Source: Rothia aeria
GTDB taxonomy: Bacteria; Actinomycetota; Actinomycetes; Actinomycetales; Micrococcaceae
Direction of reading: 5' to 3'
Assembly (NCBI GenBank): GCA_002355935.1
Contig: AP017895.1
Span: 434,001-498,000, forward strand
DNA length: 64,000 nt
Both the position numbers and the translations under genes were made by a program. The notes beneath the pieces were generated by a model, which did no database searches, was not told where the DNA came from, and saw nothing but the letters and a program-made list of their open reading frames with translations. Below are positions 46,196 to 63,582 of the stretch, piece after piece (within the stretch, counting starts at the first letter, position 1; the number at the start of each line of letters is the position of its first letter).

Positions 46196-47062
46196 CTATG
46201 CGGGGGCAGCACCCCACAGGTCTTTCGCCAAGCGGTCAATATGAATCGTCAAATAGGTCAGCTCATCCTGGGTGAGCGGCTGCTGAAGCTGCATCTCAAG
46301 AAGCAGCAGCACCTTCTGCGCGCACGCGTAGGCGCGTGGCGCATCCGCGCGTAAAGCCGCCAGCAGGCTCGGCTGCGAAATCCCGGCACCTGCCGCCCCG
46401 ATCTTGCCCTGATCGGCGCGCACAAACAGGTACCGCAGGTGCGTAATGAACCGTGCCGCGGACATGGAGGCCGGGTCGATAGCGCGCCTGTACGCAACCT
46501 CAATCACCTCAAAAACCTGCGCAAACACCTCCGTCATACGGAATGCCCGCGACATGTCGGCGGTCGCAAACTGGGCGTTTACCAGGTGCAGCGCCAGCGG
46601 GATCGCCTCGTTCGTGTTCAGCTCCACGCCCATGCGCTTGCGCACCAGGTTCAGGGCACGGTGGCCGTAGGTCACCTCGTGCGGGTACAGCAGGTTCACC
46701 TCGGGTGCGAGCGGGTAATCCACGCGCAGCCCGTCACGGGCGCGTATGACCGCGTAGTGCAGGTGGTCTGCGAACGGGATAATGAATGAGTTTGAGAGCT
46801 CAATCTCGGTGTCGTTGCGGGTGTCGCCCTCTATTTCGGTGGCTATCGCCAGAATATCGGCAGGAATTTCGGACAGCGACCAGCTGAGCCGCTCCGCCGA
46901 GATACCTTGTTCAGGGACGAAGGTCTGCTCAACTTTCGCGGGGTCAACCATGTCCCCTTTGCGTTTACCAAACGCCAGCCCGCGGCCGATCACCACCGCC
47001 TGCTTACCGAAAGTATCGACGGTGAGGGCCACATTATTGTTGTAGATGCGGCTGATGCGCAT
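46196..47062 (-). CDS. BglG/LicT-family transcriptional antiterminator
   Basis: 288 aa from ATG 47062 (GGAAGGAG upstream). Residues 1-55 are the RNA-binding CAT domain (MRISRIYNNNVALTVDTFGK). Two PRD domains follow with conserved His in FADHLHYAVIRARDG, IPLALHLVNAQF, RFITHLRYLF and LTYLTIHIDRL, the sites phosphorylated by PTS proteins. Such regulators bind an RNA hairpin next to a terminator and allow read-through of sugar operons. No PTS gene is adjacent; the mannose PTS lies 7 kb away. No clear RNA target is visible in this gap. Confidence 0.92.
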   Translation of the reverse strand: MRISRIYNNNVALTVDTFGKQAVVIGRGLAFGKRKGDMVDPAKVEQTFVPEQGISAERLSWSLSEIPADILAIATEIEGDTRNDTEIELSNSFIIPFADHLHYAVIRARDGLRVDYPLAPEVNLLYPHEVTYGHRALNLVRKRMGVELNTNEAIPLALHLVNAQFATADMSRAFRMTEVFAQVFEVIEVAYRRAIDPASMSAARFITHLRYLFVRADQGKIGAAGAGISQPSLLAALRADAPRAYACAQKVLLLLEMQLQQPLTQDELTYLTIHIDRLAKDLWGAAPA

Positions 47063-47316
47063 GGTCCTCTCCTTCCGTCGGCTCTCGGGTATTTCCTCAA
47101 ATTTTACCGTCACCCTCAGCTATAAGAGCCTGCCGCAGCGGTTCATTCCCGCAAAAAGGCGGAAAGTTCAGGGGGAAGGTGCCGAAAACCGGCAGCGTGC
47201 GACGCGCTGAAGGGGCGTAAGCACCGGTACTAGGTGGTGAAAGGTGCGCGTTACAATGAAACAAGGGTGACCAAAACGTCACCACCATGATTACCGATAA
47301 ATAACGAGGGAGTTAT

Positions 47317-48630
47317 ATGTTTAAATCCCGCCGAATTGTGGCGCCGCTATGTGCCGGTGCCTGTCTACTTCTGGGGTTGAGCGCGTGCTCTTCGGCATCT
47401 AATAGTTCACCGCAGGCGGGTGCGTCGTCACCTGCTTCGGCGAGCGCCTCCGCCACTACACCGGATGCTGCTGACGGGAAGCTCCCCCTCGGTTTAACTG
47501 AAGATAATAAAGCTGGCGATAGCCGCCCCCGCTCGAAGGTGAAAGATGTTGCCACAGGTGCGACAGTGAACCCGGACGGGTCGTGGACGTACACCGCCTC
47601 CAACGGCACCGTTATGACCACTAACGCCGACGGCACCTGGACCTGGAAAAACCAGAAAGAAGGTACTGAGGCCACCCTGCACGCTGACGGCTCGTGGGAT
47701 CACATTATGAATAATGAGATGATCCACCGGCAGGTGCATGTTAACGCTGACGGCACCTGGACTATGGATGACAGGAAAGTGGGGCATTTCGAGACGCACA
47801 CTGACGGCGGCTGGAAACACACCCACGGCACCACCGAAAACACCGGCAACGCCGACGGGACGGCGGTAAGTAAGAGCGCGTCGGGTCAGCGTCAGCTCTC
47901 CCGTAAGGAATGGCCCGTGGTGCCTCCCGCCCCCGCAATGGTGGTCTCTGAGGACGGGGTGGGCGGTGAGAGCGTGCTGCCGTTGCAGCCCCGTAAGGGC
48001 CTGAAACCGGGTACGAAAGTGATTTACGTTGTCCCCGGCTCTGAAGAAGACCTGAAAGCCACCGCCGAGCAGGAGGGGCTGCTGCTGACCGACGACAATA
48101 AGGCGGGCACCGAACGCCCACGTTCAAAGCACAAGCTCAAAGCAAATGCCACGGTGAATGAGGACGGATCGTGGACGTACTCTGATGCTAAGGGCGTCAC
48201 CATGACGGTTGCAGCCGATGGCACCTGGACCCAGAAGGACGCTAACGGTAACACCTCCGCGTTGCACGCTGACGGGTCGTGGGATGAGTATATTGCCTCC
48301 CGTGATGAGACTGTGCACGTTAAAGCCGATGGCGGCTGGAGCTGGGAGTATAAGGGCGGTGCCGAAGACCTGGTGAAAGGTAACCATAAGATCACGGTGA
48401 ACGCGGACGGCTCGTGGCGTAATGAGACCGATTCGTTCGTGCTGTACGGTACCGCAGAGGGCAAGGCGTACCAGGAGAAACCTGTTGCGCGTGAGCTGTC
48501 GAAGAAGGATGCACCGAAGGGCATTCCTAGCGCCCCCACCGTGCTTGAGCCGAACGGCCCGGGCGGCGGCGGTGTGGTGCCGCTTAAACCGCGCACCCCG
48601 TTGAAGGCCGGGCAGAAAGTGAGCTCGTAG
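47317..48630 (+). CDS. DGSW-repeat lipoprotein 1 (two five-repeat modules)
   Basis: 437 aa. Lipoprotein signal with lipobox LSAC, then a Ser/Ala linker. Two modules follow. Each begins with a (T)(D/E)DNKAG..RPRS box, then exactly five short repeats centred on D-G-[STG]-W (VNPDGSW, TNADGTW, LHADGSW, VNADGTW, HTDGGW in module 1; VNEDGSW, VAADGTW, LHADGSW, VKADGGW, VNADGSW in module 2), then a YGTAEGK-like turn and a PL(K/Q)PR..LK.G.K box. Repeats are 18-21 residues apart, consistent with beta hairpins. Membrane-anchored outside the cell. First of seven paralogues; a hairpin at 48650-48689 follows. Confidence 0.85.
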   Translation: MFKSRRIVAPLCAGACLLLGLSACSSASNSSPQAGASSPASASASATTPDAADGKLPLGLTEDNKAGDSRPRSKVKDVATGATVNPDGSWTYTASNGTVMTTNADGTWTWKNQKEGTEATLHADGSWDHIMNNEMIHRQVHVNADGTWTMDDRKVGHFETHTDGGWKHTHGTTENTGNADGTAVSKSASGQRQLSRKEWPVVPPAPAMVVSEDGVGGESVLPLQPRKGLKPGTKVIYVVPGSEEDLKATAEQEGLLLTDDNKAGTERPRSKHKLKANATVNEDGSWTYSDAKGVTMTVAADGTWTQKDANGNTSALHADGSWDEYIASRDETVHVKADGGWSWEYKGGAEDLVKGNHKITVNADGSWRNETDSFVLYGTAEGKAYQEKPVARELSKKDAPKGIPSAPTVLEPNGPGGGGVVPLKPRTPLKAGQKVSS

Positions 48631-48649
48631 CCCGGCGGTTCCCTGATAG

Positions 48650-48689
48650 CCCCGGCGGGGCGGCGCCTTCACGCGACGTTTCGCCGGGG
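48650..48689 (+). terminator. GC-rich hairpin after lipoprotein 1
   Basis: CCCCGGCG (48650-48657) pairs with CGCCGGGG (48682-48689), followed by TTCTTC. Confidence 0.6.
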
Positions 48690-48832
48690 TTCTTCTACGA
48701 TTGCGCGGGAGACACCGTGATGCGTGCCCTCACCCTCAAAGGTGGCGCACGATAAAATTTAAGGGAACAGGTGCCCTACCTTCCGGAGGCTGCCGTGGCG
48801 CCTGAAACTATCGCCGGTGAAAGAGAGAACAC

Positions 48833-49525
48833 ATGTTTACGCCCCGTTACCGTGTGGCGCCGTTATGCTCTGGTGCCGTCTTATTGGTGGTGCTAAGCGC
48901 TTGCACCGCCAACCCCACGTATGAGGAGCGGGCCGCCACTCCGGCCCCGTCCACCTCAACAAGCTACACCGTGCCTGTGGGCCAAGTGGACGAGTATAAG
49001 GCGGGCAGGCCCCGGCCGAGCGCATCCGGTGGGACTACCCCGGCGGGCGCAAAAATTAATGGTGACGGGTCGTGGGAGTATAAGGACGCGAATGTGAGCA
49101 TGCACGTGCACCCGGACGGCACCTGGGAGTGGTCCAATAGCGGCGGGATAAGGCGAACCTGAAAGCTGATGGCACGTGGGAGAGCTATATCGCTAAAACT
49201 AAGGAACGCACCCGGGTGAACCCGGACGGCAGCTGGATTCGGGTGGTGGATCATGTGAGCTATGACCTGGTCCCGTCTGGGCGGGGATGGCGGTGAACAC
49301 GGACGGTTCATGGCGTCAGCAGGCTGAGCATGTGACCCTGTACGGCACATCGGACGGGAAGGTGTACCAGCAGAAGCCGGATATGCGTGAGGTTGGCCCG
49401 GACCGAATACCCGATGAGACCCCGGCGGTGCCCACCATTTATGGGCAGGATGGTGTGGGGATAAGAGCATCATCCCGCTGCGCCCGCGCACCCCGCTGAA
49501 GGCGGGTCAGAAAAACGTCCCCTAA
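48833..49525 (+). CDS. DGSW-repeat lipoprotein 2 (one module, three frameshifts)
   Basis: Corrected length 231 aa. Lipobox LSAC, then a short linker, KAGRPRPS box and five repeats INGDGSW, VHPDGTW, LKADGTW, VNPDGSW, VNTDGSW. It ends with YGTSDGKVY and PLRPRTPLKAGQK. The frame is lost at G runs 49145-49147, 49283-49286 and 49457-49460, one base each. Its single module is the minimal form of the family. Confidence 0.75.
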
Positions 49526-49701
49526 CTGGTGATAGGACATTACAAAACGCATAAACATGTAAAACTATGCATAGCGGGTATTGGGTGAAGATATGGCTGG
49601 TTTAGCCAGCAAGGTACACTTAAAGATGCTGCACAACCCACACTGCTGCATATTCACTGAAGTGGTGTTGTGGGGCATTATTATTCACCGTTGAAAAGAG
49701 A

Positions 49702-51066
49702 ATGCATATGTTGACGCCCCGTCGTTTCGCCGCGCCACTATCGGCCAGTGTTGCCTTGGTTTTGGCGCTGAGCGCCTGCACCACTAGCTCCGTGAAATCG
49801 CAGGAAAGTTCCCCGACTATGAGCGAGTCTTCCGCAGCCGCCGCTACGAGCGAGTCCTCCCCGGTGAACACGGCGGCTGCCTCCGAATCGGCGGACGATA
49901 AGCTGCCCGTGGGCCTGACCGACGACAATAAAGCCGGTAAACCGCGCCCGCGCTCATCCATGAAAGACACCCTCAAAGGTGCAACCATTAATGAGGACGG
50001 ATCGTGGACATACGATAAGCCCGACGGCACAGTCATGACCACTAACGCGGATGGCACCTGGCACTGGAAGGACGAAAAGAACGGGCAGGAAGCCACCCTG
50101 CACGCCGACGGCTCATGGGATTATTCCACCCACAACGAGTATGTGAAGAAAACTATTCACATGAACGCGGACGGCACATGGAGGCAGAAAAACGAGAAGA
50201 CCGGTGACTCCACAGAAACTCGTGCCGATGGCAGCTGGGAAAACCACGAAGGCGGCGGTAAGTACGTAACCACCGGCACAACGGAGGGAACCGCGACGAA
50301 GAAGAACACGGCCACCGGGGAGGAACGTGAAATCCCTAAGGAAGGTTTCCCCGTGGTTCCCCCAGCGCCCCATACGCAGGTGACGGAGAACGCTGTGGGC
50401 CCCAATAGCGTGGTTCCGCTCAAACCCCGTGCTGGCCTCAAGCCCGGTTTGAAAGTCACCTATGCTGTCCCCGGATCTGAGGAGGATAAGCAGGCCTCAG
50501 CTGAGGCGGACGGTACCGCCCTGACCGACGACAATAAGGCCGGTAAACCGCGCCCGCGTTCCACCGATAAATACCCAGAATCCAACGCCACCATTAATGA
50601 GGACGGCTCATGGACGCACACCACCGTCGGTGGCGTGGAGGTCAAGGTGAACGCCGACGGCACCTGGGAGTGGAAGAGCACAAAAGACGGCTCGTCTGCC
50701 GCCCTGCACGCTGATGGTTCCTGGGACTTTGACGACGTGAAATATCAGCAGAAAATTCATGTGAACGCTGACGGCTCGTGGACCTGGGAGGATCAACGGA
50801 ACCAATCCGTTACTGTAACCCACGCGGACGGCTCGTGGCGGTACGAGGACGACAGGTCACTCGATACCGGCCTGGCAGATGGCACCGCCCACCACGTGGA
50901 TAAGCAGCACAGCAACTTTAACCGGGAAATCAAGAAAGAGCACTTCCCGGCGAAAGTACCCGGATTCCCCACCTCTTACGTCTCAAAGAACGGCGTGGGC
51001 CCCAATAGTGTGGTTCCGCTCAAGCCCCGCACCCCGCTGAAAGTGGGGCAGAAAGCCGTTTCGTAG
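49702..51066 (+). CDS. DGSW-repeat lipoprotein 3 (two modules, intact)
   Basis: 454 aa. Lipobox LSAC. Both modules have the LTDDNKAGKPRPRS box and five repeats each (INEDGSW, TNADGTW, LHADGSW, MNADGTW, TRADGSW; then INEDGSW, VNADGTW, LHADGSW, VNADGSW, THADGSW). Each ends in NSVVPLKPR..LK.G.K. Between modules is the join VPGSEEDKQASAEADG also seen in its relatives. No cysteine outside the lipobox. A 14-bp stem terminator follows at 51129-51176. Confidence 0.87.
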   Translation: MHMLTPRRFAAPLSASVALVLALSACTTSSVKSQESSPTMSESSAAAATSESSPVNTAAASESADDKLPVGLTDDNKAGKPRPRSSMKDTLKGATINEDGSWTYDKPDGTVMTTNADGTWHWKDEKNGQEATLHADGSWDYSTHNEYVKKTIHMNADGTWRQKNEKTGDSTETRADGSWENHEGGGKYVTTGTTEGTATKKNTATGEEREIPKEGFPVVPPAPHTQVTENAVGPNSVVPLKPRAGLKPGLKVTYAVPGSEEDKQASAEADGTALTDDNKAGKPRPRSTDKYPESNATINEDGSWTHTTVGGVEVKVNADGTWEWKSTKDGSSAALHADGSWDFDDVKYQQKIHVNADGSWTWEDQRNQSVTVTHADGSWRYEDDRSLDTGLADGTAHHVDKQHSNFNREIKKEHFPAKVPGFPTSYVSKNGVGPNSVVPLKPRTPLKVGQKAVS

Positions 51067-51128
51067 CTGAGCCGGTTCGCCACTGGGGCCGCGTGCGGTA
51101 CCTGCTGTGGGCGAGAAATACCCGGCAC

Positions 51129-51176
51129 CGTGCAGGCCGGATACCCCCGTTGTGTGGGGAGCATCCGGCCTGCACG
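51129..51176 (+). terminator. Terminator after lipoprotein 3
   Basis: Perfect 14-bp stem, arms 51129-51142 and 51163-51176. No T-run, CGTCTTTA follows. Confidence 0.75.
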
Positions 51177-51352
51177 CGTCTTTAAAGCTGGGGGTTTACT
51201 GGGGGAACGGTGGGAGCTGGCTACGGGTTCTCTGTACATCGTAACGAGCACCGGTGAGGTGCCGCCGCAGCCACTGCCCCGGTTCATATACTGAGGGTAA
51301 CGGCGCCCGGTGCGCCGCACACCGACATACGTTATGAAGAAGGAAAACTCCA

Positions 51353-52703
51353 ATGAAGAAGACCAGCCGCAACCGTATGGCAGCCCCCGTATCGGCCTCA
51401 TTCGCCCTCTTGCTGGCACTGAGCGCCTGCTCATCATCCGGGGTGAACCAGGGAGGGGGCGCCAATAACTCAGGGTCGTCAGAGTCCGCATCCGCCCCAA
51501 CAGAGGACGGGCGGCAGATAGTTGGTCTGGGAGACGACAATAAGGCAGGAAAACCCCGCCCCCGCTCCGAACGTGAAACTCGTGGTAATCAGAACCAGGT
51601 GAAATCTGATGGATCGTGGACAGAGAAAACCTTGTCTGGCCAGGAAAAATAACTGTGAATGCTGACGGCACTTGGGTGAATAAAACTGGTGAGAAGGAAT
51701 TTACGCTTCACGCCGACGGCTCGTGGGAATCCACCGAAAAACTGTCTAATTCAAAAACTGTAATCCACGTTAACCCTGATGGCTCGTGGAGCATTCAAGA
51801 GCAAGGCAAAGAAAATAAAGAGCCTTCAAATAAGGCAGAGGTTCGCGCCGACGGCACCTGGGAGGTAGACGAGCTCGGCGTTAAATATGTTGGTAAGGCT
51901 GATGGTACAGCCACCAAGAAAGACTCCAAAGCAGATGAAGAGAAACCTATTTCTCGCAGCGAATGGCCTGATATTTTCCCCAAGTACGTGGCATCGCTCT
52001 ACAAGGAAGATGGAAGCTTGGTAACTTCCGTCCCGAAAGACGGTGTTATTCCCCTGAAACCGCGTACCGCCCTGCCGTTGGGCGTCTCCGCTAAAAAGCT
52101 GTACCCGAAACTGATGAATACCGCAGGGACCTTGCTGAGCTTGAAGGCACACTTCTGACAGATGAGAATAAAGCCGGTAAGCCGCGCCCGCGCCCTGAAC
52201 GTGAAGTAAACTCGCAAGCCAAGGTTAACCCTGACGGCTCATGGAGCTGGAACAAAGGGGACACTGAGCTGACTGTCGCCACCGATGGCACCTGGGTTCA
52301 ACATGAGAAAGCGGTGGGGCAGAAAACAACGACCCTTTACGCCGACGGCTCGTGGGAAGAGAAAGAAACTAAGAGTGGCGGTGAGGAAGCTGTCACGCAC
52401 GTTAACCCTGACGGCACTTGGCGTACGACTGAGGGTTCTAAAAAAGAAGAACTGCATGCTGACGGGACGTGGCGCTCAGAGAGCAGCGGCGGGTTCGTCA
52501 CCTACAGCGATGTCAACGGCAAAGTGTACATGGAAGGCTCAAGCGGTAAGCCGTTCGAGATTACGAATGAAACGTATACAACTGTGCGCACCCCCAGTGT
52601 TCCATCACCCAGGGTGGGGTATGGTCTCGGCATTGGTGGGGGAGGCGTCCTGCCTCTGACCCCGCGTAAACCGCTGTACCCCGGTCAGCAGGCCGTCTCA
52701 TAA
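51353..52703 (+). CDS. DGSW-repeat lipoprotein 4 (two modules, two frameshifts)
   Basis: Corrected length 450 aa. Lipobox LSAC, DDNKAGKPRPRS box, five repeats (KSDGSW, VNADGTW, LHADGSW, VNPDGSW, VRADGTW), joining region, DENKAGKPRPRP box and five more (VNPDGSW, VATDGTW, LYADGSW, VNPDGTW, LHADGTW), ending GGVLPLTPRKPLYPGQQ. The frame is lost at A5 runs 51645-51649 and 52093-52097. Only 22 bp separate it from lipoprotein 5, which has a strong AAGGAGG site. Confidence 0.78.
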
Positions 52704-52725
52704 GAGGTTATAAGGAGGTTGTACA

Positions 52726-54254
52726 ATGAAAAACTTTCGTTATCACCGTGTTCTTGCGTCCATCTCGGCAGGTGCCGCGTTAATGCTGGTTTTAAGCTCG
52801 TGCACTACGTTCTCTGCGAAGAAAGAGGACTCCCCGGAGCACCCGTCGGCCTCCAGCTCGCATAACTCGTATAACAGCCACGGGATGCCTGAGAAGCCGG
52901 AAAAATGCCCGGAGCCCGGTAAATTTCCGGCTGAGGCTACTTCATCGTCATCGGTTTCACCTAGCGCCACCCCGTCAGCGTCTGGCGGCGAGGTACGCAC
53001 CGTTGGTTTGACCGATAATAATAAGGCCGGTAAGCCCCGCCCGCGCCCTCAGGGAAGGTTATTAACGATGTGACGGTGAACGAGGACGGCTCCTGGAAAT
53101 ATCACGCCGGCAGCGATGATCTGACCGTGAATGCGGATGGTACTTGGTCGTATCGATCAAAGACCTTTGGGCAGCGGGAAGCTACACTTCACGCCAACGG
53201 GTCGTGGGATATTACAAATAACGAGTACAGCAAACAGGAGAAAATGCACGTTAACCCTGACGGGTCGTGGGATAAAGTTACTAAATACGAGGCCAAAGAG
53301 GGGAAGGCGGCCGAAGAGCACCATGAGCAGGTGCGCTCTGACGGCAGCTGGGAGCAGAAAGGCCCCTACCAAACCATTGTTGGCAGCGCGGACGGCACCG
53401 TCACGCTCACATATTCGGATGGAAAGCAGGGCAGCACCTTCTCAAGCTCCGAATGGAGCCTTGTGGAGCCTTTCGACTACAAGGAATTAATTTTTGTGCA
53501 GAAGGACCATAACATTAAGTACGGTGTGGGAGACGGCGGTGTGATCCCGCTGATGCCACGTGCGCCCTTGCCCAGGGGTGTAAAGGCTGCGCAGGCACCC
53601 GTTGGGTCGGAGCAGGAACGTATTGCCCTGGCACAGCAGCAGCGGCTTGTCCTCACCGATGATAATAAGGCGGGTAAAGAGCCGCGCCGCCGGAAAACAG
53701 AATCCTATGACCAGGGTCTGGACAACGTAGACCTCAAAGATGATGGGTCCTACTCGTATTCCACTAAAGAAGGAGATGCAACCGCTGAAGTTGCCGCCGA
53801 CGGTACGTGGAAAGCCAAAAGTAGTGACGGTAACACCGCAACATTGAACGCGGACGGGTCATGGGACTCCTACACCGAAAAACCCACGGTGAACACCAAA
53901 GAATCCAAGATGAATGTGCACGTGAATTCGGACGGCACGTGGGTGAAGAATTTTGGGAAAAACGTAAGGGCGCAGATGTTTGCCGACGGCTCATGGTGCT
54001 ACGATCTCAGGATCGGCGACGGCGAATCATCCGCCTACTACGGTGCCTACTATGGCACCCCCGAGGGTAAAATCTACGGGCTCGGTACGGACGGTGAATG
54101 GCATGAAGCCGATTATAAAATGTGGGATGAACGGCGCGACTATGAATACATAGAACCCCCACACGCCGCCACCGTGGTGTCCCCTGTTAAAGATGGTGTT
54201 GTTCCCCTGATGCCGCGTGTCGCTGTAGCCGCCGGGCAGAAGGCCTTCTCGTAG
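52726..54254 (+). CDS. DGSW-repeat lipoprotein 5 (two modules, one frameshift)
   Basis: Corrected length 509 aa. Starts MKNFRYHRVLASISAGAALM with lipobox LSSC, then a long Ser/Pro/Glu linker. Repeats: VNEDGSW, VNADGTW, LHANGSW, VNPDGSW, VRSDGSW; then LKDDGSY, VAADGTW, LNADGSW, VNSDGTW, MFADGSW. Boxes are LTDNNKAGKPRPR and LTDDNKAGKEPRRR. The frame is lost at the GGG run 53052-53054, just before repeat 1, the same place as in lipoprotein 6. Nearly identical to 6 in the signal and repeat 6-10 regions; a recent duplication. Confidence 0.8.
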
Positions 54255-54277
54255 GAGAGAGTGTAAGGAATCTGGCA

Positions 54278-55788
54278 ATGACAATCTTACGCTATCACCG
54301 TGTTCTTGCATCCATCTCAGCAGGTACCGCGCTGACACTGGTTTTAAGCTCGTGTGCCGTGTTTTCCGCAAGGAAAGAAGAAACAATACCGCGCGCCCCA
54401 GAACGCCCGGTGGCTTCCAGCTCATACAGCCCATACAGCAGGTACACCGAACCCGAAATGCCAGCCTGCCCGGAGCCCGGCAAATTCAACCCGGCTGAGG
54501 CCACCTCATCCGCCACAGCCTCTGCGTCCGTGTCACCCAGCGCCACCCCGTCAGCATCTGGCGGCGAGGTGCGCACCGTTGGTCTGACCGACGACAATAA
54601 GGCTGGTAAACCCCGCCCGCGCTCGCAGGGGGAACCAGCAAGTATGTGACGGTGCATGATGACGGCTCTTGGAAGTATTCCCCTGATAAAGACCGGGAGC
54701 TGACCGTGAACGCTGACGGCACCTGGTCATATCGATCAGACGGTTATCGTCATCAGGAAGTTACACTTCACGCCGACGGGTCGTGGGATACCGTGGTAAA
54801 TAGCAAATCCACGCAGGAGAAAACGCACGTCAACCCTGATGGGTCGTGGGATAAAGTTACTAAATATGAGGCCGAAGAGGGGAAAGAAGCTGTAGAGGTC
54901 CGAGAGCAGGTGCGCCCTGACGGCAGCTGGGAGCAGAAAAACCGCTACCAAACCATTGTTGGCAGTGCGGACGGAACCGTCACAATCACCGATTCGAAGG
55001 ATGGGCAGCAGAGTACCTCAGTAAGCTCCGAGTGGAGCCTCGTGAAGCCCTTCGACTACGAGCAATCGTCTATCGTGCAGCGGACAGAAGATATTAAATA
55101 CGGTGTGGGAAGTAACGGCGTCATCCCGCTGATACCGCGTACACCCTTGCCCAGGGGTGTAAAGGCCGTACAGGCACCCGTTGGCTCCGAACAGGAACGC
55201 GTCGCCATAGCGCAGCAGCAGCGGCTTGTCCTCACCGATGATAATAAGGCGGGTAAAGAGCCACGCCGTCGGGAAACGGAGTCCCATGATTGGGGGCTAA
55301 GCAATGTTCACCTCAAAGATGATGGGTCCTACTCGTATTCCACTAAAGAAGGAAAAGGAACCGCTGAAGTTGCCGCCGACGGTACATGGAAAGCCAAAAG
55401 TAGTGACGGTAGTACCGCAACATTGAACGCGGACGGGTCATGGGACTCCTACACCGAAAAAACCATGGTGAATATGCATGTGAACCCGAACGGCACGTGG
55501 GTGAAGAAAACTGGGGAATCCGCAAAGATACAGATGTTTGCCGACGGCTCATGGTGCTATGAATACAAGGACAGCGAAATCACCTACGGCACCCCCGACG
55601 GCAAAATCTATGAGGGTGTTTCGGATAAGAAATGGAGGGAAGTTGCACAAAAAACTTGGGAGAGCCGGGGTGGAGATAAAAGCATAAAAGACTTGGACAC
55701 CCCCCGCGCACCATTAACTGTTAAAGATGGTGTTATGCCCCTAAGGGCGCGTAACCCCATAGCCGCAGGGCAGAAGGCATTCCCATAA
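54278..55788 (+). CDS. DGSW-repeat lipoprotein 6 (two modules, one frameshift)
   Basis: Corrected length 503 aa, 23 bp after lipoprotein 5. Starts MTILRYHRVLASISAGTALT, lipobox LSSC. Repeats: VHDDGSW, VNADGTW, LHADGSW, VNPDGSW, VRPDGSW; then LKDDGSY, VAADGTW, LNADGSW, VNPNGTW, MFADGSW. The frame is lost at the G5 run 54628-54632, just before repeat 1. Ends GVMPLRARNPIAAGQKAFP. Duplicate of lipoprotein 5 with diverged linker and module 1. Confidence 0.8.
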
Positions 55789-55904
55789 AACACAGCACCG
55801 CTAACACTGTAACCGGTGAATACAGCAGTACCCGCCCGCTACGGTTCGCTCCGTATGCGGGCGTTGCTGTACCCGGCTGCGCTGCCTCCGGAAAGGGCCT
55901 TCGC

Positions 55905-56023
55905 GTTAAATGTTAAAACGCCTGGCGTTAAATAATTACCCGACAGGGGATTCTGAAAACCTTGAAATATCAAGGGAAAACGGCTATCACCGTTAAATAT
56001 CAGATTTGTGCCTGTTAAATAAT
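55905..56023 (+). repeat. Five GTTAAA(T/A) repeats ahead of an orphan HTH-like fragment
   Basis: GTTAAAT at 55905-55911, GTTAAAA at 55912-55918, GTTAAATAAT at 55927-55936, GTTAAATAT at 55992-56000 and GTTAAATAAT at 56014-56023, all on the plus strand. The segment 55789-56406 between lipoproteins 6 and 7 also holds a GC-rich hairpin (about 55831-55887). Confidence 0.5.
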
Positions 56024-56248
56024 GCTATTTGGGAAGTCTCAGCCGGTGACGTGAAAGACCTGCTTCCCGGCTCCTCCGCAGTGCGCAGTAAACAACTGAA
56101 AAGCCTGCTTGACCGCGACCTGCTCTACCGGCCTGAAGGCACCCGCAAATACAGTTCACGGACGTGGGGTAACGACCTGAGTATCCACCTGGTGCGCAGG
56201 CTCGACGAGTTGGGGATGCTCCCATCAATCCTGCGGGACGGGCTATAG
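56006..56248 (+). pseudogene. C-terminal fragment of an HTH-type protein (Fic- or AlbA-like?)
   Basis: The open frame (TTG start, no binding site) reads WEVSAGDVKDLLPGSSAVRS then LKSLLDRDLLYRPEGTRKYS, with the look of a winged-helix end as found at the tails of Fic or AAA_4/AlbA-type proteins. No N-terminal domain is found upstream. It seems to be a gene remnant caught inside the lipoprotein array; the family is a guess. Confidence 0.4.
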
Positions 56249-56406
56249 ACAAAACCCACAAAGCCGCAATAGCGGATGGGATGAGAGCACAGCGAAAAGG
56301 ATCCTGCATCCAGGGGCGTGTTTTAGCGGCCTCAAAAAAGTCTAAAGGGTATATTAGAAGAGGAAAACGCCCATAAACCCATAATATTCACCGGTAAGGA
56401 ATTACT

Positions 56407-57292
56407 ATGCATAAGCTTCGCATACTTTCCGTAGGCGCGGTCATGGTTCTCGCACTCAGCGCCTGCACAGCAGCCTCCACCTCAAGCTCATCCAGCTCAA
56501 AATCACAGTCCGCCAGCAGCAGCCGAGCCTCAAGCGCAGCATCATCAAGCTACACGGCATCCGCCACCCCCACCCCAAAAGAACAAATTGACGCCAAAGA
56601 ACTCATTGAACACCCCGAAAAGCGCGGGAATATAACTTCTTCACCGACGTAAAATTCCCCATCACCTGCCCAGCCCATGAAGTCGGCAAAAACCCCGACA
56701 AAGTTCCCTTCGAAAGCCATAGTGCCCCCGGCGGCTCAGCTGCTCTCACCGATGATAATAAGGCCGGTAAACCGCGCCCGCGCCCGAACGACCCCATCAG
56801 CAGCTCCGACAAACCCTGGGTAAAAATTAACGACTCCGACGGCTCCTGGACCTACATTAAGCGCGGCAGTGACCATATTGAGGTAAAAGCCGACGGCACC
56901 TGGACCGCAGAAACAGGGATGAAAAACATACAGCTGAACCCCGATGGCTCCTGGGACATGACCGTTAAAGAAAACGTGGGATACGGTACTAGGCAGGTGA
57001 TCCACGTGAACCCCGACGGCACCTTCCGGTACATGAAAGACAAAGAAGTAAAAACCGTGACCTGTGCAGACGGATCGTGGGTTGAGATTACCCCGACAGC
57101 GTGAGTGTGGGGGATAGAAATAAAGAGATTACCACCACGGTGTCCTCCGACGGGAAGATCAAGGACGAAGGATTCTCCGGCCCACGAAATACCCGCAACG
57201 ATTTGAGTGTATCCGGCTACGGAGCCCCAGGTGCTGGCGGGGTGAAACCGCTGGAACCTCGCCGTATCCTCAAGGGCGGGGTGCGCCTCTAA
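56407..57292 (+). CDS. DGSW-repeat lipoprotein 7 (one module, two frameshifts)
   Basis: Corrected length 295 aa. Lipobox LSAC, very Ser-rich linker, then the LTDDNKAGKPRPRP box and five repeats: NDSDGSW, VKADGTW, LNPDGSW, VNPDGTF, TCADGSW. The last element is TVSSDGK and the protein ends GGVKPLEPRRILKGG. A linker cysteine (ITCPAHE) and one in repeat 5 are unusual for the family. The frame is lost at GGG 56626-56628 and at C4 57091-57094. A 14-bp stem terminator follows. Confidence 0.75.
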
Positions 57293-57556: not shown

Positions 57557-58299
57557 ATGAGTAGCAAAGCAACCGAAATCGCTAAAAATCTTCCCACCCT
57601 TGAGCACCCAGACGGCAGCCCCATCCGCGCCCTTGTCGCTGACGACGAAGAGATGCTGAAAGAACTCGTGAGCATGGGCCTGAAAATGATCGGCTGGGAC
57701 GTGCGGTCTGCCACCGACGGGCCCACCGCGCTCGCCATTGCCCGTGACTGGCGGCCAGACGTGCTGGTACTCGATATTATGATGCCCGGCTTTGACGGCC
57801 TGGAACTGCTGGAACGCATCCGCAAATTTTACCCCGAGGTGCCGTGCCTCTTCCTCACCGCTAAAGACTCCGTTGATAACCGTATTGAAGGGCTGGCGGC
57901 GGGTGCCGACGATTATGTGACTAAACCATTCTCAATGGAGGAGGTGATGATTCGCCTGCACCGGCTGGTGCAACGCTCGGGTGTGGCTGCGGTTGATGAC
58001 GCCGAACTAGTGGTGGGGATTTGATCCTGAACCAGGACACCCGTGAGGTGAGCCGTGGCGGCGACCCCATCACGCTTACCGCAACTCAGTTCGATTTGCT
58101 GCGCTACCTCATGGAGAACGCTAAACGCGTGGTCTCTAAAAGCCAGATTCTTGATAACGTGTGGAACTATGATTTTGGCGGGCAAGCAAATATTGTGGAG
58201 CTTTACATCTCGTATCTGCGTAAGAAGATTGATGTGGGGCGTGAGCCTATGATCCATACAGTACGCGGCGCAGGTTATGTTATACGTCCAGCTGTATAA
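57557..58299 (+). CDS. OmpR/PhoB-type response regulator (single frameshift)
   Basis: Corrected length 247 aa. Receiver domain: RALVADDEEMLKEL, phosphorylated Asp in VLVLDIMMPGFDG, switch Thr in LFLTAKD and Lys in VTKPFS. The C-terminal winged helix (ITLTATQFDLLRYLMENAKR, then YISYLRKKID and HTVRGAGYVIRP) is typical. The frame is lost at the G4 run 58015-58018, joining VVGDLILNQDTREVS. The kinase gene follows 89 bp downstream. Confidence 0.93.
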
Positions 58300-58388: not shown

Positions 58389-59998
58389 ATGAACGTAGCG
58401 CAGAGCACGCACACAGCACCACCCCAACCCCAGGTACCCGCTAAACGCGCACGACGAAACAAAAAAGTGCGTTACTCCCCGCGTCTGCGCACCCGCCTTA
58501 TTGCCATCCTCGTAAGTATGCTCGGCGTTGCCTGCATTATTATCGGCAGCTCAAGCTACGTTGCTATTCATAACTCGCTACTGGGTCAGGTTATAGCTAA
58601 CCTCAACGGCACCTCCCTGCGTGCGGGTGGCGGCCCCGAAGGGGAGAATCCAGTGGGAACCTCGCGTGCCCCACCTCGGACAATAATGCCACCGGCAAAA
58701 ACCCGCTACTCATTCCCGGGCAGGTGCCTGGCACACTCGGCATGTGCTTTGACCGAGACGGGCAGACCACTTTCGCAGGCATCCTCGACAGCAAAGCGCA
58801 TACTCAGGGGATCTCAGACTCCGATAAGAACCTGCTCTCTGCTATCCGCCTGGGTGCCCAAGACGGCGTACCCGTGGAGGTTGAGTTGGAAAGCGGAGGC
58901 CACTACCTGGTGCAGGTCTCAAAAGGTAAGCCAGGCTCAGGAAACCTGCTGGTTGGTGTACCCATGGGCGATATGCACCAGACCCTAGCCGCCACTATCA
59001 CTGTGATGGTGATCGGATCCGTGGCTGTTATGATGCTGGCCGGGATGCTTGGCTCCTACATTATTCGCCGCACCATGCGCCCGCTGGAGCGTGTTTCGGC
59101 GGTTGCCACCGACGTGGCGAACCTAAACCTGGGTGAACACACCATCTCCCAGCAGGTGAAGGTCATGCCCAAAGACGCCGACCCCAGAACCGAGGTGGGT
59201 GCGGTCGGGTACGCTCTGAACCAGCTGCTCGATAATGTGAGTTCGGCCCTTGAGGTGCGTGAACGCACCGAACAGCAGATTCGCGCTTTCATTGCGGATG
59301 CCTCCCATGAGCTCCGCACTCCCCTGGCTGCCATTAAAGGCTACTCAGATATGATGCGCTGGACAGAGGCAATGAGTGAGAATGGGCAGTCGTCGCTGGC
59401 GCGCATCGACTCGCAAACGGTGCGCATGTCGCGCCTTGTTGAAGACCTGCTGCTGCTGGCACGTTTGGATGAGGGGCGTGAGCCGCAGTTTGAGCTGATT
59501 GACCTGACGGAACTGCTGATTGAGTGCCTGTCCGATATGCAGGCGGCGGCCCGCACTCACGTGTGGCGGCTGGATGTGCCGGATGAGCCGGTTGAGATGA
59601 TTGCTGACCGCTCACAGCTGCAGCAGGTGATTCTGAATCTGCTGTCAAACGCCCGTAAACACACGGATGACGGCACCACTGTGATTGCCGGGTTGCGGGT
59701 TTCAGCGGATCGCAGCCATGCCCTAATGACCGTGGTGGATAACGGGCCGGGGATTGACCCGCAGTTTGTGGATAAGATTTTTGACCGTTTCGCGCGCGCC
59801 GATAAGGCACGTTCCGGTTCGGACGGAACCACGGGGCTGGGGCTCTCGATTGTGCAGGCGATTGTGCGTGTGCACGGCGGCACGATCTCGGTTAAATCCC
59901 GGCCAGGCCGCACCGAGTTCATGGTGCGTTTGCCGTTGGCGAGTGCGGCACCTGCGCAGGCTCGGCTGAGCGTGCAGAAGGGGACAGGCGGACACTAG
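58389..59998 (+). CDS. Sensor histidine kinase, PhoR/MtrB type (single frameshift)
   Basis: Corrected length 536 aa. Membrane segments LRTRLIAILVSMLGVACIII and TITVMVIGSVAVMMLAGMLG flank an extracellular domain of about 170 residues. A HAMP region (RRTMRPLERVSAVATDV) leads to HisKA with DASHELRTPLAAIKGYSDMM (phosphorylated His) and the ATPase domain (NLLSNARKHT, DNGPGIDP, GTTGLGLSIV). One base is lost in the extracellular part, most simply at the G4 run 58641-58644. It partners the OmpR regulator directly upstream. Confidence 0.9.
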
Positions 59999-60874: not shown

Positions 60875-60931
60875 GCGCAGCGAATACGCGCACCATATCA
60901 ATCAACACAGAGATTTTTGAGGAGGACCGCA

Positions 60932-63582
60932 GTGGCTAAATGGCTTTACTCTATCGGTAGCTTTGCCGCTCGCAAAGCCTGGGCAGTGATTGCTATCTGG
61001 GTGCTTGTTATTGCCGGTGTTGCCGGTACGTATAGTGCATTCCATGGGCAGCTAAAGACCACGTTCACCATGCCCGGCACTGAGACGCAGCGGCTCACCG
61101 ATGAGCTGGCCTCACGCTTCCCGGACGCTAACCGAGGAACCGGCCAAGTAATCGTGACCACCGGTGACGGTTCACGCATTACCGATGAGCAGAAACAAGC
61201 CTTCGTGAACAAGCTGAATAGCCTTAAGAACGAGAATTCGGCGGTTGACGATGTGAGCGACCCTTTCGCCACCGAGCAGCAGATTGCCGACGGCAAGAAG
61301 CAGCTTGAAGAGGGTAAGCAGAAGCTAGATGCCGCCCCGAAGCAGATCGAGGATGGCAAGAAACAGCTGCGGGATGCTCAGAAGAAAGCAGATGACGGCA
61401 AAGCGCAGCTGGAGGCGGCACAGAAGCAGCTGGATGCGGCCCGCGAACAGGCTCGAGCAGCTGGTGCTCTAGAGTCTATGCGTGAACAGCTTGGCTCCCA
61501 GCAGGCGCAGATTGACGCTCAGCGTGCTCAGCTGGCCGAATCCCAGAAGCAGCTGGATACAAAGGCCGCTGAACTTGCCAACTCTGAAAAGAAGCTTCCC
61601 GAACAGCAGGCGGAGCTCGCCCGCAAATCGGCGCTTCTGGATCTGACGAGCGACTATCGTACGGTCTCTGAGGACGGCTCGACCGCGGTCGCCGGGGTTT
61701 TCTTCAAAATGAAAAGCTCGGAAGCCCCGCATGCTGATAAAGAAAAGCTCATGGAGCATTTCAAAAACGCGGATTTGAAGGGCCTGACGGTCAACTTTGA
61801 CCAGAATGTCGCCGAATCTCCCGATGTGGGTATGGGTGTTGGCGAGATTGTAGGTGTTGTGGTGGCCCTTATGACGCTCATCGTTTTGCTCGGCACCCTC
61901 ATTGCCGCTGGACTGCCCATTCTCATGGCGATTGTGGGCGTGATTGTGGGCATCCTGGGCACCCTCTCATTCTCGTCCCTGGTTGATATGAGCTCAACCA
62001 CCTATATGCTGGGCATGATGCTCGGCCTAGCGGTGGGGATTGATTATTCGCTGTTCATCCTCAACAGGCACCGCTCCAACCTCATGGACGGCATGCCGCT
62101 GCGAAAATCTATCGCGGTCGCTAACGGCACCAGCGGTAACGCGGTGGTGTTCGCGGGTGCCACCGTGATTATTGCCCTGCTGGCCCTGAATGTGACTGGT
62201 ATTCCGTTCCTGGGATACATGGGTGATGCTGCGGCGCTGTGCGTGTTTGTGGCTGTACTGATTTCGGTGACCCTAACCCCGCCATGCTCTCGCTGATTGG
62301 CCGTAAAGTCATGTCAAAGAAGGCATGGGCGTCCGTTGATACTCCTGAGAAGATCGCGGCACGCCACACCGAACAGGAACAGCGTGAGGAATCCCCGCAC
62401 GGCTGGCTGAAAATTGTGCTCGCCAAGCCTGTGGTGACCATCCTGCTCTGCGTGGTGGCGTTGGGTGCTATTGCCATTCCGATGGGTCAGATGCGCATGG
62501 GCCTGCCTTCGGCTGAAAGCTCACAGACTGAAAGCACTGAATATAAGGCCTACCAGATTGTTAAAGACAAGTTTGGTGAAGGCATGAGCGGCCCCGTACT
62601 GGCGGTGGCGCACACCCCCTCAGGCATGAGCGAGGCGCAGGCTGAGCAGGCGCAGATCGATATTGCTCGTGCGATTGAGGCGAAAGACCCCGACAACGTG
62701 AAAACCGTGGTTCCCGCCGGGCAAACCGACGATCACACCGTGCAGATTTTCCAGGTGATCCCCAAACACGGGCCGAGCTCGGTTGAAACTGTGAACCTGG
62801 TTGAGCAGCTGCGTGAGGTTCACGTGAACGTACAGGGCACTGACGTGAAACTGGGCGTGACCGGTCTGACCGGCGGCAACATCGACGTCTCCAATACGCT
62901 GGCGCAGAAACTGCCGCTGTACTTGGCGGTCGTCATGGGTCTGTCGTTTATCGTGCTGATTCTGGTGTTCCGTTCAATTCTGGTGCCGCTGGTTGCTTCG
63001 GTCGGGTTCCTCTTCTCGATTCTGGCAAGCTTCGGTGCGGTGGTTGCGGTCTACCAGATGGGCTTCATGGGGTCCCTCTTCGGGGTGCACGACCCCGGTC
63101 CGATTCTGGCGTTCCTGCCCACCCTGATGATCGGTATCCTCTTCGGGCTGGCGATGGACTACCAGGTGTTCCTGGTCTCTGGCATGCGCGAAGCGTATGT
63201 GCACGGTAAGGACGCGAAAACCGCTGTAGTTGCCGGGTACAACCATGCGGTGCGTGTGGTGATCGCCGCCATGATCATTATGATCTCGGTGTTCGGCGGG
63301 TTCATCTTCGCCGAATCCGCAATGATCCGCCCCATCGGTTTTGGCTTGGCGTTTGGGGTGCTGGTGGATGCGTTCGTGGTTCGTATGACCATCACCCCCG
63401 CAGTGTTGACCCTGCTGGGCGATAAAGCCTGGTGGATGCCAAAGTGGCTTGATAAGCTCGTTCCAAATATGGATGTGGAAGGTGCAACCCTTCTGGACAC
63501 CCTGGAAGAAGAGGCCGAACAGCCCGCCGATCACGATGAACAAGCCGAGACGGCTAAAAGCACCGTGGGAGCATCCTCCTAG
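60932..63582 (+). CDS. MMPL/RND-family exporter with coiled-coil extracytoplasmic insert (single frameshift)
   Basis: Corrected length 883 aa from GTG 60932 (GAGGAGG upstream). MMPL proteins move lipids or drugs using the proton gradient. Twelve membrane segments in two halves; the first has GMMLGLAVGIDYSLFILNRH, the second has GILFGLAMDYQVFLVSGMRE with the expected Asp-Tyr pair. Between segments 1 and 2 lies a long Lys/Gln/Ala-rich coiled coil (about residues 120-240). The frame is lost at the C4 run 62277-62280, between VTLTP and AMLSLIGRK. An acidic tail ends the protein. Confidence 0.92.

Follow-up and report, generated by a model that had tools for sequence, protein, structure and literature searches.

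Seven adjacent lipoprotein genes of Rothia aeria, at positions 47317–57292 of the stretch analysed here (the window: 64,000 nucleotides, positions 434001–498000 of the single 2,588,680-base contig of this mouth bacterium), were found to encode repeat proteins of shared anatomy. From the N-terminus, a lipobox is followed by a Ser/Ala/Thr-rich stalk, an LTDDNKAG-RPR box, a head in which the DGxW repeats keep a fixed order, and a tail with proline at every third residue. Judged from the sequence, the family and its anatomy are as good as certain. The explanation that we favour, tentatively and with less than even confidence in it as a whole, is that the head may form an open amphipathic sheet of β-hairpins with the proline tail docked on it. 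Surface lipoproteins with β-hairpin repeats are a known kind; this family and its design of sheet plus proline tail look new.

Anatomy of the seven-gene array

All seven genes (g1–g7) lie on the forward strand. Two-module lipoproteins are encoded in intact frames by g1 (47317–48630; modules at 47494–48018 and 48085–48618) and g3 (49702–51066; modules at 49915–50454 and 50521–51054). Two modules are also encoded by g4 (51353–52703; second module 52155–52688), which carries two breaks, and by g5 (52726–54254; second module 53652–54242) and g6 (54278–55788; second module 55231–55776), each with one frame change, located after the RPR box of module 1 in g5 and at the homologous place in g6. Single modules are found in g2 (48833–49496, end approximate), which is broken in the assembly and has its five anchors spread across three frames, and in g7 (56407–57292), with two frame changes. 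A lipobox was present in 7/7 genes, reading L-S-A-C in g1, g2, g3, g4 and g7 and L-S-S-C in g5 and g6. The original prediction of adjacent paralogues with a lipobox was thereby borne out, and the lipobox supports the surface location that it had proposed; its statement that each protein has one or two modules agrees with these assignments.

Repeat anchors were scanned with the pattern [DN]G[STGA][WYF] in all three forward frames of the array, frame by frame and with no frame restored. Sixty were found, ten each in g1, g3, g4, g5 and g6 and five each in g2 and g7, which corresponds to five in each of the 12 modules. The background of the pattern was 2 on the reverse strand of the array and, in the rest of the window, ~0.9 (forward) and 1.5 (reverse) per 10 kb. 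When E was allowed as third letter, one extra anchor appeared (DGEW at 54090, in module 2 of g5, past the sixth hairpin described below). The count of five repeats in all twelve modules, made earlier by eye, was thus confirmed, apart from this one anchor under the looser pattern.

The order of the repeats was examined in 17 modules, comprising 10 of the 12 in the array (g2 and module 1 of g4 are outside the set), one from elsewhere in the genome and six from the comparison genome G009, which we take to be R. dentocariosa (2,506,025 bases). With the strict pattern, five anchors were present in 17/17 of these DNKAG modules from two species. The first five anchors of each module were used, and for 82 of the 85 repeats the best match in another module stood at the same ordinal position, where 200 permutations gave 17.6 on average and 32 at most. 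The claim that the repeat types keep their order therefore holds, and the positional identity indicates that a module is duplicated whole, with no slippage of its repeats to be seen. Two details of the original prediction changed. The repeat spacing, given as 18–21 residues, was corrected to 17–27 residues, and the 'YGT.(D/E)GK turn' looks more like a sixth hairpin without tryptophan, as which it aligns. A tree of the modules was weak, with 6 of 14 inner branches well supported.

Short paralogues and distribution of the family

The 17 DNKAG modules were aligned (A1), as were 18 short paralogues (A6), and the two alignments proved to be one family (hhalign 99.1%, score 111). Five single short members scored 61–86 against A1, compared with 28–39 for three unrelated DG-rich controls. 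The short DGxW lipoproteins of Rothia (e.g. L036, L038, L040) share the lipobox (34 of 36 genes) and the PxxPxxP tail motif (32 of 36) with the array proteins; they differ in having one module, one to five anchors mostly 17–19 residues apart and no DNKAG-RPR box. By a loose pattern for aromatic anchors, the 36 short genes from seven genomes have one (4 genes), two (4), three (8), four (17) or five (3) of them, so that 28 of 36 carry three to five; the low counts partly represent degenerate repeats. The repeat number is thus fixed within the DNKAG subfamily only and varies across the whole family.

By the positions of the listed matches, this genome has twenty family copies, compared with 11 in G009. 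Of the twenty, seven make up the array, ten lie near 2.57–2.58 Mb and the other three are single genes at about 5.6 kb, 199 kb and 2.27 Mb. The ten form a second tandem array of short DGxW lipoprotein genes (L040:4612-13191, ~2,572,600–2,581,100, reverse strand), two of which are without an in-frame lipobox. Searches with A1 matched 4 of 295 genomes of the taxonomic family, this one included and all of the same genus; complete DNKAG modules showed up in just two, this genome and G009. With A6, 7 of 35 genomes of the genus were matched, again including this one; outside the genus the matches were weak, in 3 of 297 genomes of the order (best E 4.7e-4) and 1 of 396 of the phylum (E 1.6e-5). Among the genomes searched, the protein family as recognized by these profiles was found only in the genus Rothia. 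A search with a single protein found no related locus in the genome contigs, and no related locus was seen in the viral contigs. The sole match of another alignment (A2) in the genome contigs, a Siccibacter locus, was rejected because it is part of a 4,080-residue protein of Ig-like repeats, presumably BapA-like.

The statement that no known family is described in this way stood up to the library searches, with no name obtained from Pfam, NCBIfam or PHROGs apart from a DUF5004 match 1.6 bits over its cut-off on one piece (see below). No NCBIfam model exceeded its cut-off in five window pieces, and the PHROGs matches were to eight undescribed families (best phrog_5116, 1.9e-5 in 2 of 17 modules). 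Two further candidates were set aside: DUF1285_N, which matched 13 of 17 modules (best 3.9e-4) weakly or by composition and the listed scores of which lie under its cut-off, and Ysc84 on g1 (7.5e-4, also under its cut-off). Literature searches touching Rothia lipoproteins, hairpin sheets or the G-box brought up no description of the family among the papers listed, most subscription journals being outside their coverage. Pfam, NCBIfam and PHROGs thus lack a name for a family of surface lipoproteins that is present 20 times in one genome.

Geometry of the repeats and the proline tail

Repeat geometry was derived from 76 repeats of 27 short open frames, which had been selected for at least three anchors. 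Exactly 18 residues were found in 42 of the 76, and in these Trp occupied position 6 in 42/42, Val position 18 in 41, Gly position 4 in all and Gly position 13 in 37. Position 16 was hydrophobic in 88% and position 8 in 57% of the 18-residue repeats; positions 7, 9 and 17 were mostly polar, and position 15 was polar in about two thirds, with V or I in 15 of the 42. Turns occurred about every 9 residues, the second lying exactly midway (9+9) in 34 of the 76. VILMFWY residues made up 22–24% of the repeats; among 76 control open frames the median was 32% and the 5th percentile 25%.

Each repeat is probably a β-hairpin, with two strands of ~7 residues and a DG turn about every 9. With three-residue DG loops, we infer that W6 is placed opposite V18 and residue 8 opposite residue 16 on one face, with the polar positions on the other. 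The sheet would then be amphipathic, presenting W, Y/W, V/I and V on one side and mostly polar residues on the opposite one. By the geometry worked out here, a hairpin whose turns are alike shifts the register, repeat by repeat, by the amount by which its two strands differ in length. Repeats of 9+9 give zero shift and a sheet made of them should therefore not close as a standard barrel; hairpins whose successive strands are equally long would instead stack in register, giving an open antiparallel sheet that resembles a ruler. The balance tilts slightly towards an open rather than a closed sheet. The original prediction had reasoned from the fixed number of repeats to a closed fold. This was not supported, as single-module family members carry one to five aromatic anchors; since the anchor number varies across the family, the main argument for a closed fold is gone, which does not by itself prove an open one. 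The family thus offers a natural hairpin series (few, four, five, five plus five) with which to ask if hairpin sheets that are soluble in water remain open or close up with growing repeat number.

The tails, taken as the last 45 residues of 37 members, showed a proline-to-proline spacing of three in 142 cases (shuffled 27.4±4.9, maximum 44), and PxxPxxP occurred in 33 of 37 (shuffled mean 4.1, maximum 12); the set excludes three edge duplicates and two broken pieces of the window, and its members are related, so that the shuffles overstate their independence. A precedent for proline recognition by a hairpin sheet is the TCP domain of CPAP (PMC3776556). Its ~20 strands, joined by PDG turns, form a single layer that is described as exposed to solvent on both sides and lacking a hydrophobic core. 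A PRxxPxP segment of STIL, in the polyproline II form, is bound there against aromatic residues. Docking of the tail is proposed because a single Rothia chain holds both elements, a hairpin sheet and a proline segment. On this proposal, the PxxPxxP tail would adopt a polyproline II helix and dock on the aromatic face, either as a lid on its own protein (in cis) or as a link to a neighbouring lipoprotein (in trans). We regard docking on the sheet as rather doubtful. Still less probable is the trans version in particular, in which the Trp/Tyr face would capture the PxxPxxP tail of the next lipoprotein, the proteins would self-assemble into a non-covalent coat and the repeat number would set the length of the docking ruler. 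With tails docked in either manner, the array products would form a layer outside the membrane, tethered by proline and varied in its loops; a role in adhesion or as a scaffold is conceivable, with the chances tending against it.

Several results weigh against the open sheet with a docked tail. Four of the 37 tails are without PxxPxxP, the last tails of g5 and g6 among them. The long-module repeats, a set of 71 that includes those of G009 and of the 199 kb gene, were exactly 9+9 in only 10 cases and had no recognisable second turn in 27, which makes the shear argument against a barrel weaker for the modules of the array itself. The sheet would have an apolar face in need of cover, whereas the CPAP sheet has two hydrated faces. 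A resemblance to the CPAP domain counts in favour: the Pfam model Tcp10_C (PF07202) matched one of ten short paralogues at E = 4.7e-7 and two more at 0.05–0.14, with 0 of 6 shuffled controls matched, and CPAP chains matched the first of these paralogues at E = 3e-4 over the whole sequence, no stretch passing alone. The best Tcp10_C score, 29.8, is nonetheless under the 36-bit cut-off. The A6 profile fitted designed propellers (1.7e-9) far better than CPAP (0.012), and A1 fitted designed trefoils best (2.8e-7). A search of genomes with PF07202 gave matches in 0 of 35 genomes and also in 0 of 14 controls; being silent in the controls too, it decides nothing either way. Three library matches might suit a barrel instead. 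Among six window pieces, DUF5004 (PF16395) on the g5 piece was the only Pfam match above its cut-off (23.2 against 21.6 bits), and it matched two of the 17 modules at E up to 1 (best 8.6e-4). NlpE matched 6 of the 17 modules weakly (best E 3.3e-4; below cut-off in the six window pieces), and BigA_N gave a weak match. We take the DUF5004 and NlpE families to be barrels.

Alternative explanations

A small closed β-barrel, in which five hairpins plus the degenerate sixth would close around a core of W, Y and V and possibly around a ligand, is somewhat unlikely. In its favour are the five anchors that all 12 modules have, the additional sixth hairpin seen on alignment and the strict positional identity; the single apolar face suits a core, and the matches of DUF5004 and NlpE point the same way. 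It fits less well with the short members that have one to five aromatic anchors, with the lack of shear from equal strand lengths in many short repeats and with a VILMFWY content below the control median. The hairpins might instead be pieces of β-propellers, two repeats making one four-stranded blade and a ring being completed by several proteins or by the two modules of one protein. Designed Cake propellers were the best of all PDB chains for A6, and an unrelated PQQ-type protein came first of three DG-rich controls against A6 (40.0), closely followed by a PDG-repeat control (38.5). Against A1, the same PQQ protein was the lowest of the three (27.7), and the DNKAG modules fitted designed trefoils better than propellers (5.4e-5); this preference for trefoils suggests a low-complexity DG resemblance. 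Five hairpins amount to 2.5 blades, odd numbers leave half blades, and the modules show five hairpins plus a degenerate one where a PQQ-type propeller would have at least four four-stranded blades. Propeller pieces are the alternative to which we give least credence.

Two further explanations concern function. The heads could be carbohydrate-binding adhesins, with a Trp/Tyr ladder that binds glycans of the host, of plaque partners or of the bacterium's own wall, and the array would be a set of specificities. The aromatic ladder, the stalked lipoproteins, the 20 paralogues, the dN/dS of ~0.44 and 0.66 in the recent pair g5/g6 (see below) and weak adhesin-type NCBIfam matches in the 18 short members (SclB in 6, best 7.5e-5; Ca_tandemer in 5, best 2.9e-4) are consistent with this, but those matches may reflect composition, an orthologue-like pair is under purifying selection and no carbohydrate-binding family exceeded its cut-off in the window pieces scanned with Pfam and NCBIfam; we consider it unlikely. 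Less likely again is a wall spacer or wall-associated lipoprotein, like the lipoproteins of the same order that combine 17-residue GDGSG hairpins with an OmpA domain. The order of the parts (lipobox, hairpins, proline segment) is shared, and hhalign gave 94.8% between A1 and A7 with a score of 53.3, compared with at most 19.0 in 60 column shuffles of A7. Single OmpA-type rows, however, scored 15–46 against A1, where the unrelated DG-rich proteins reached 28–39, and Pfam gave no OmpA match in six window pieces. We make no claim of homology to the repeats of the OmpA lipoproteins, since unrelated DG-rich proteins reach scores like those of the single members.

Reading frames, selection and neighbourhood

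Of the seven genes, g1 and g3 alone are uninterrupted open frames; the other five (g2, g4, g5, g6 and g7) each shift frame at least once. Seven of 40 conserved G009 genes were also split over frames in this assembly, compared with 1 of 43 in the reciprocal test. The 40 were drawn from 76 non-family G009 open frames of at least 150 residues and counted if the match had at least 65% identity and 70% coverage, and the 43 from 93 queries; one and three further queries, respectively, were dropped for low coverage, and the others for lower identity or no match. The published genome of R. aeria JCM 11412 was obtained with PacBio RS II and HGAP assembly, with one gap closed by PCR amplicons (PMC5201055), and the present PacBio-only assembly is probably error-prone. 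Since splitting also affects its conserved genes, we do not favour true pseudogenes as the explanation of the five broken ones. The array has at least 8 breaks by visual count where 1.8 would be expected for its 2,873 codons (Poisson P = 6e-4), a density about four times that of the conserved genes; repeat-related assembly trouble, decay and phase variation are all candidate sources of this excess. The frame changes of g5 and g6 lie at a homologous place just past the RPR box (53030–53075 and 54605–54650), a shared site that may reflect either a systematic reading error or biology. The g5/g6 pair (dS 0.35–0.54) is old enough for decay had the genes been dead. Between g6 and g7, an open stretch of 83 residues (55997–56245; no Pfam match at E 0.001) may be a gene remnant.

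The genes are under constraint, i.e. purifying selection between the two species, and change faster after duplication. For an orthologue-like pair (the 199 kb gene and a G009 gene), dS was 1.60 and dN 0.22, compared with 2.08 and 0.19 for a BglG control. Module 2 of g4 and its G009 match gave dS 3.45 and dN 0.43, and for g7 dS was saturated with dN 0.32. The tandem pair g5/g6 had dS 0.54 and dN 0.24 in module 1 and 0.35 and 0.23 in module 2, from which the dN/dS values given above follow.

The array is bordered on the left by a PRD/CAT_RBD antiterminator of the BglG/LicT type (46196–47113, reverse strand) and on the right by a response regulator receiver domain (57557–58024, forward strand), the gene of which continues in another frame and is followed by a histidine kinase. 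The frames of the histidine kinase and of an MMPL transporter adjoining the array (58389–59998 and 60917–62296) also look broken. By the positions of tblastn matches, antiterminator and response regulator are separated by ~230–470 bases in four of five relatives without a DNKAG array; in the fifth (G016), the 15-kb stretch examined yielded no antiterminator. In the two array-bearing genomes, 7 and 4 genes lie between them. As the border genes are adjacent in four relatives without it, the array is most simply read as an addition at a conserved junction. Terminator-like sites numbered 22 against 14.5±3.6 expected; a promoter scan was uninformative, with 3 sites and 4.4 by chance.

Comparison with known systems

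The OmpA-domain lipoproteins of the same order (L126, L128, L130-L136) have 17-residue GDGSG hairpin repeats, a proline segment and an OmpA domain, the latter tested with Pfam in one of them, whose repeats fell under no Pfam family over cut-off. At E 1e-20, 17 of 198 genomes had similar proteins, and 5 of the 18 matches listed cover the OmpA part only. Like the array proteins, the OmpA-domain lipoproteins have a lipobox and two-turn repeats followed by a proline segment; they differ in having Gly where the array has Trp, and in their C-terminal OmpA domain. They may be relatives or a case of convergence. The designed Cake and Scone PQQ-like propellers and Symfoil trefoils in the PDB share DG turns and hairpin repeats with the family and include the best PDB matches of A6 and A1. 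Their blade or three-fold symmetry sets them apart, and the match may reflect DG-rich composition.

The CPAP/SAS-4 TCP domain or G-box (PF07202; PDB 4bxp, 4ld1) resembles the Rothia proteins in its tandem hairpins, with DG turns spaced ~9 residues apart in the short members, and in its proline-rich partner, PRxxPxP of STIL in the one and PxxPxxP of the tail in the other. Another genome of the same class encodes a protein with PDG repeats every ~9 residues (L125:1-400), much like the rhythm of the CPAP G-box. Membership of the Rothia family in the G-box was rejected, as its scores lie below the Pfam cut-off; the family also differs from CPAP in the conserved Trp after the turn, in being a bacterial lipoprotein and in carrying its putative ligand in the same chain. 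If the tail does dock on the sheet, the array would represent a bacterial counterpart of the centriolar proline-recognition sheet, evolved by Rothia itself.

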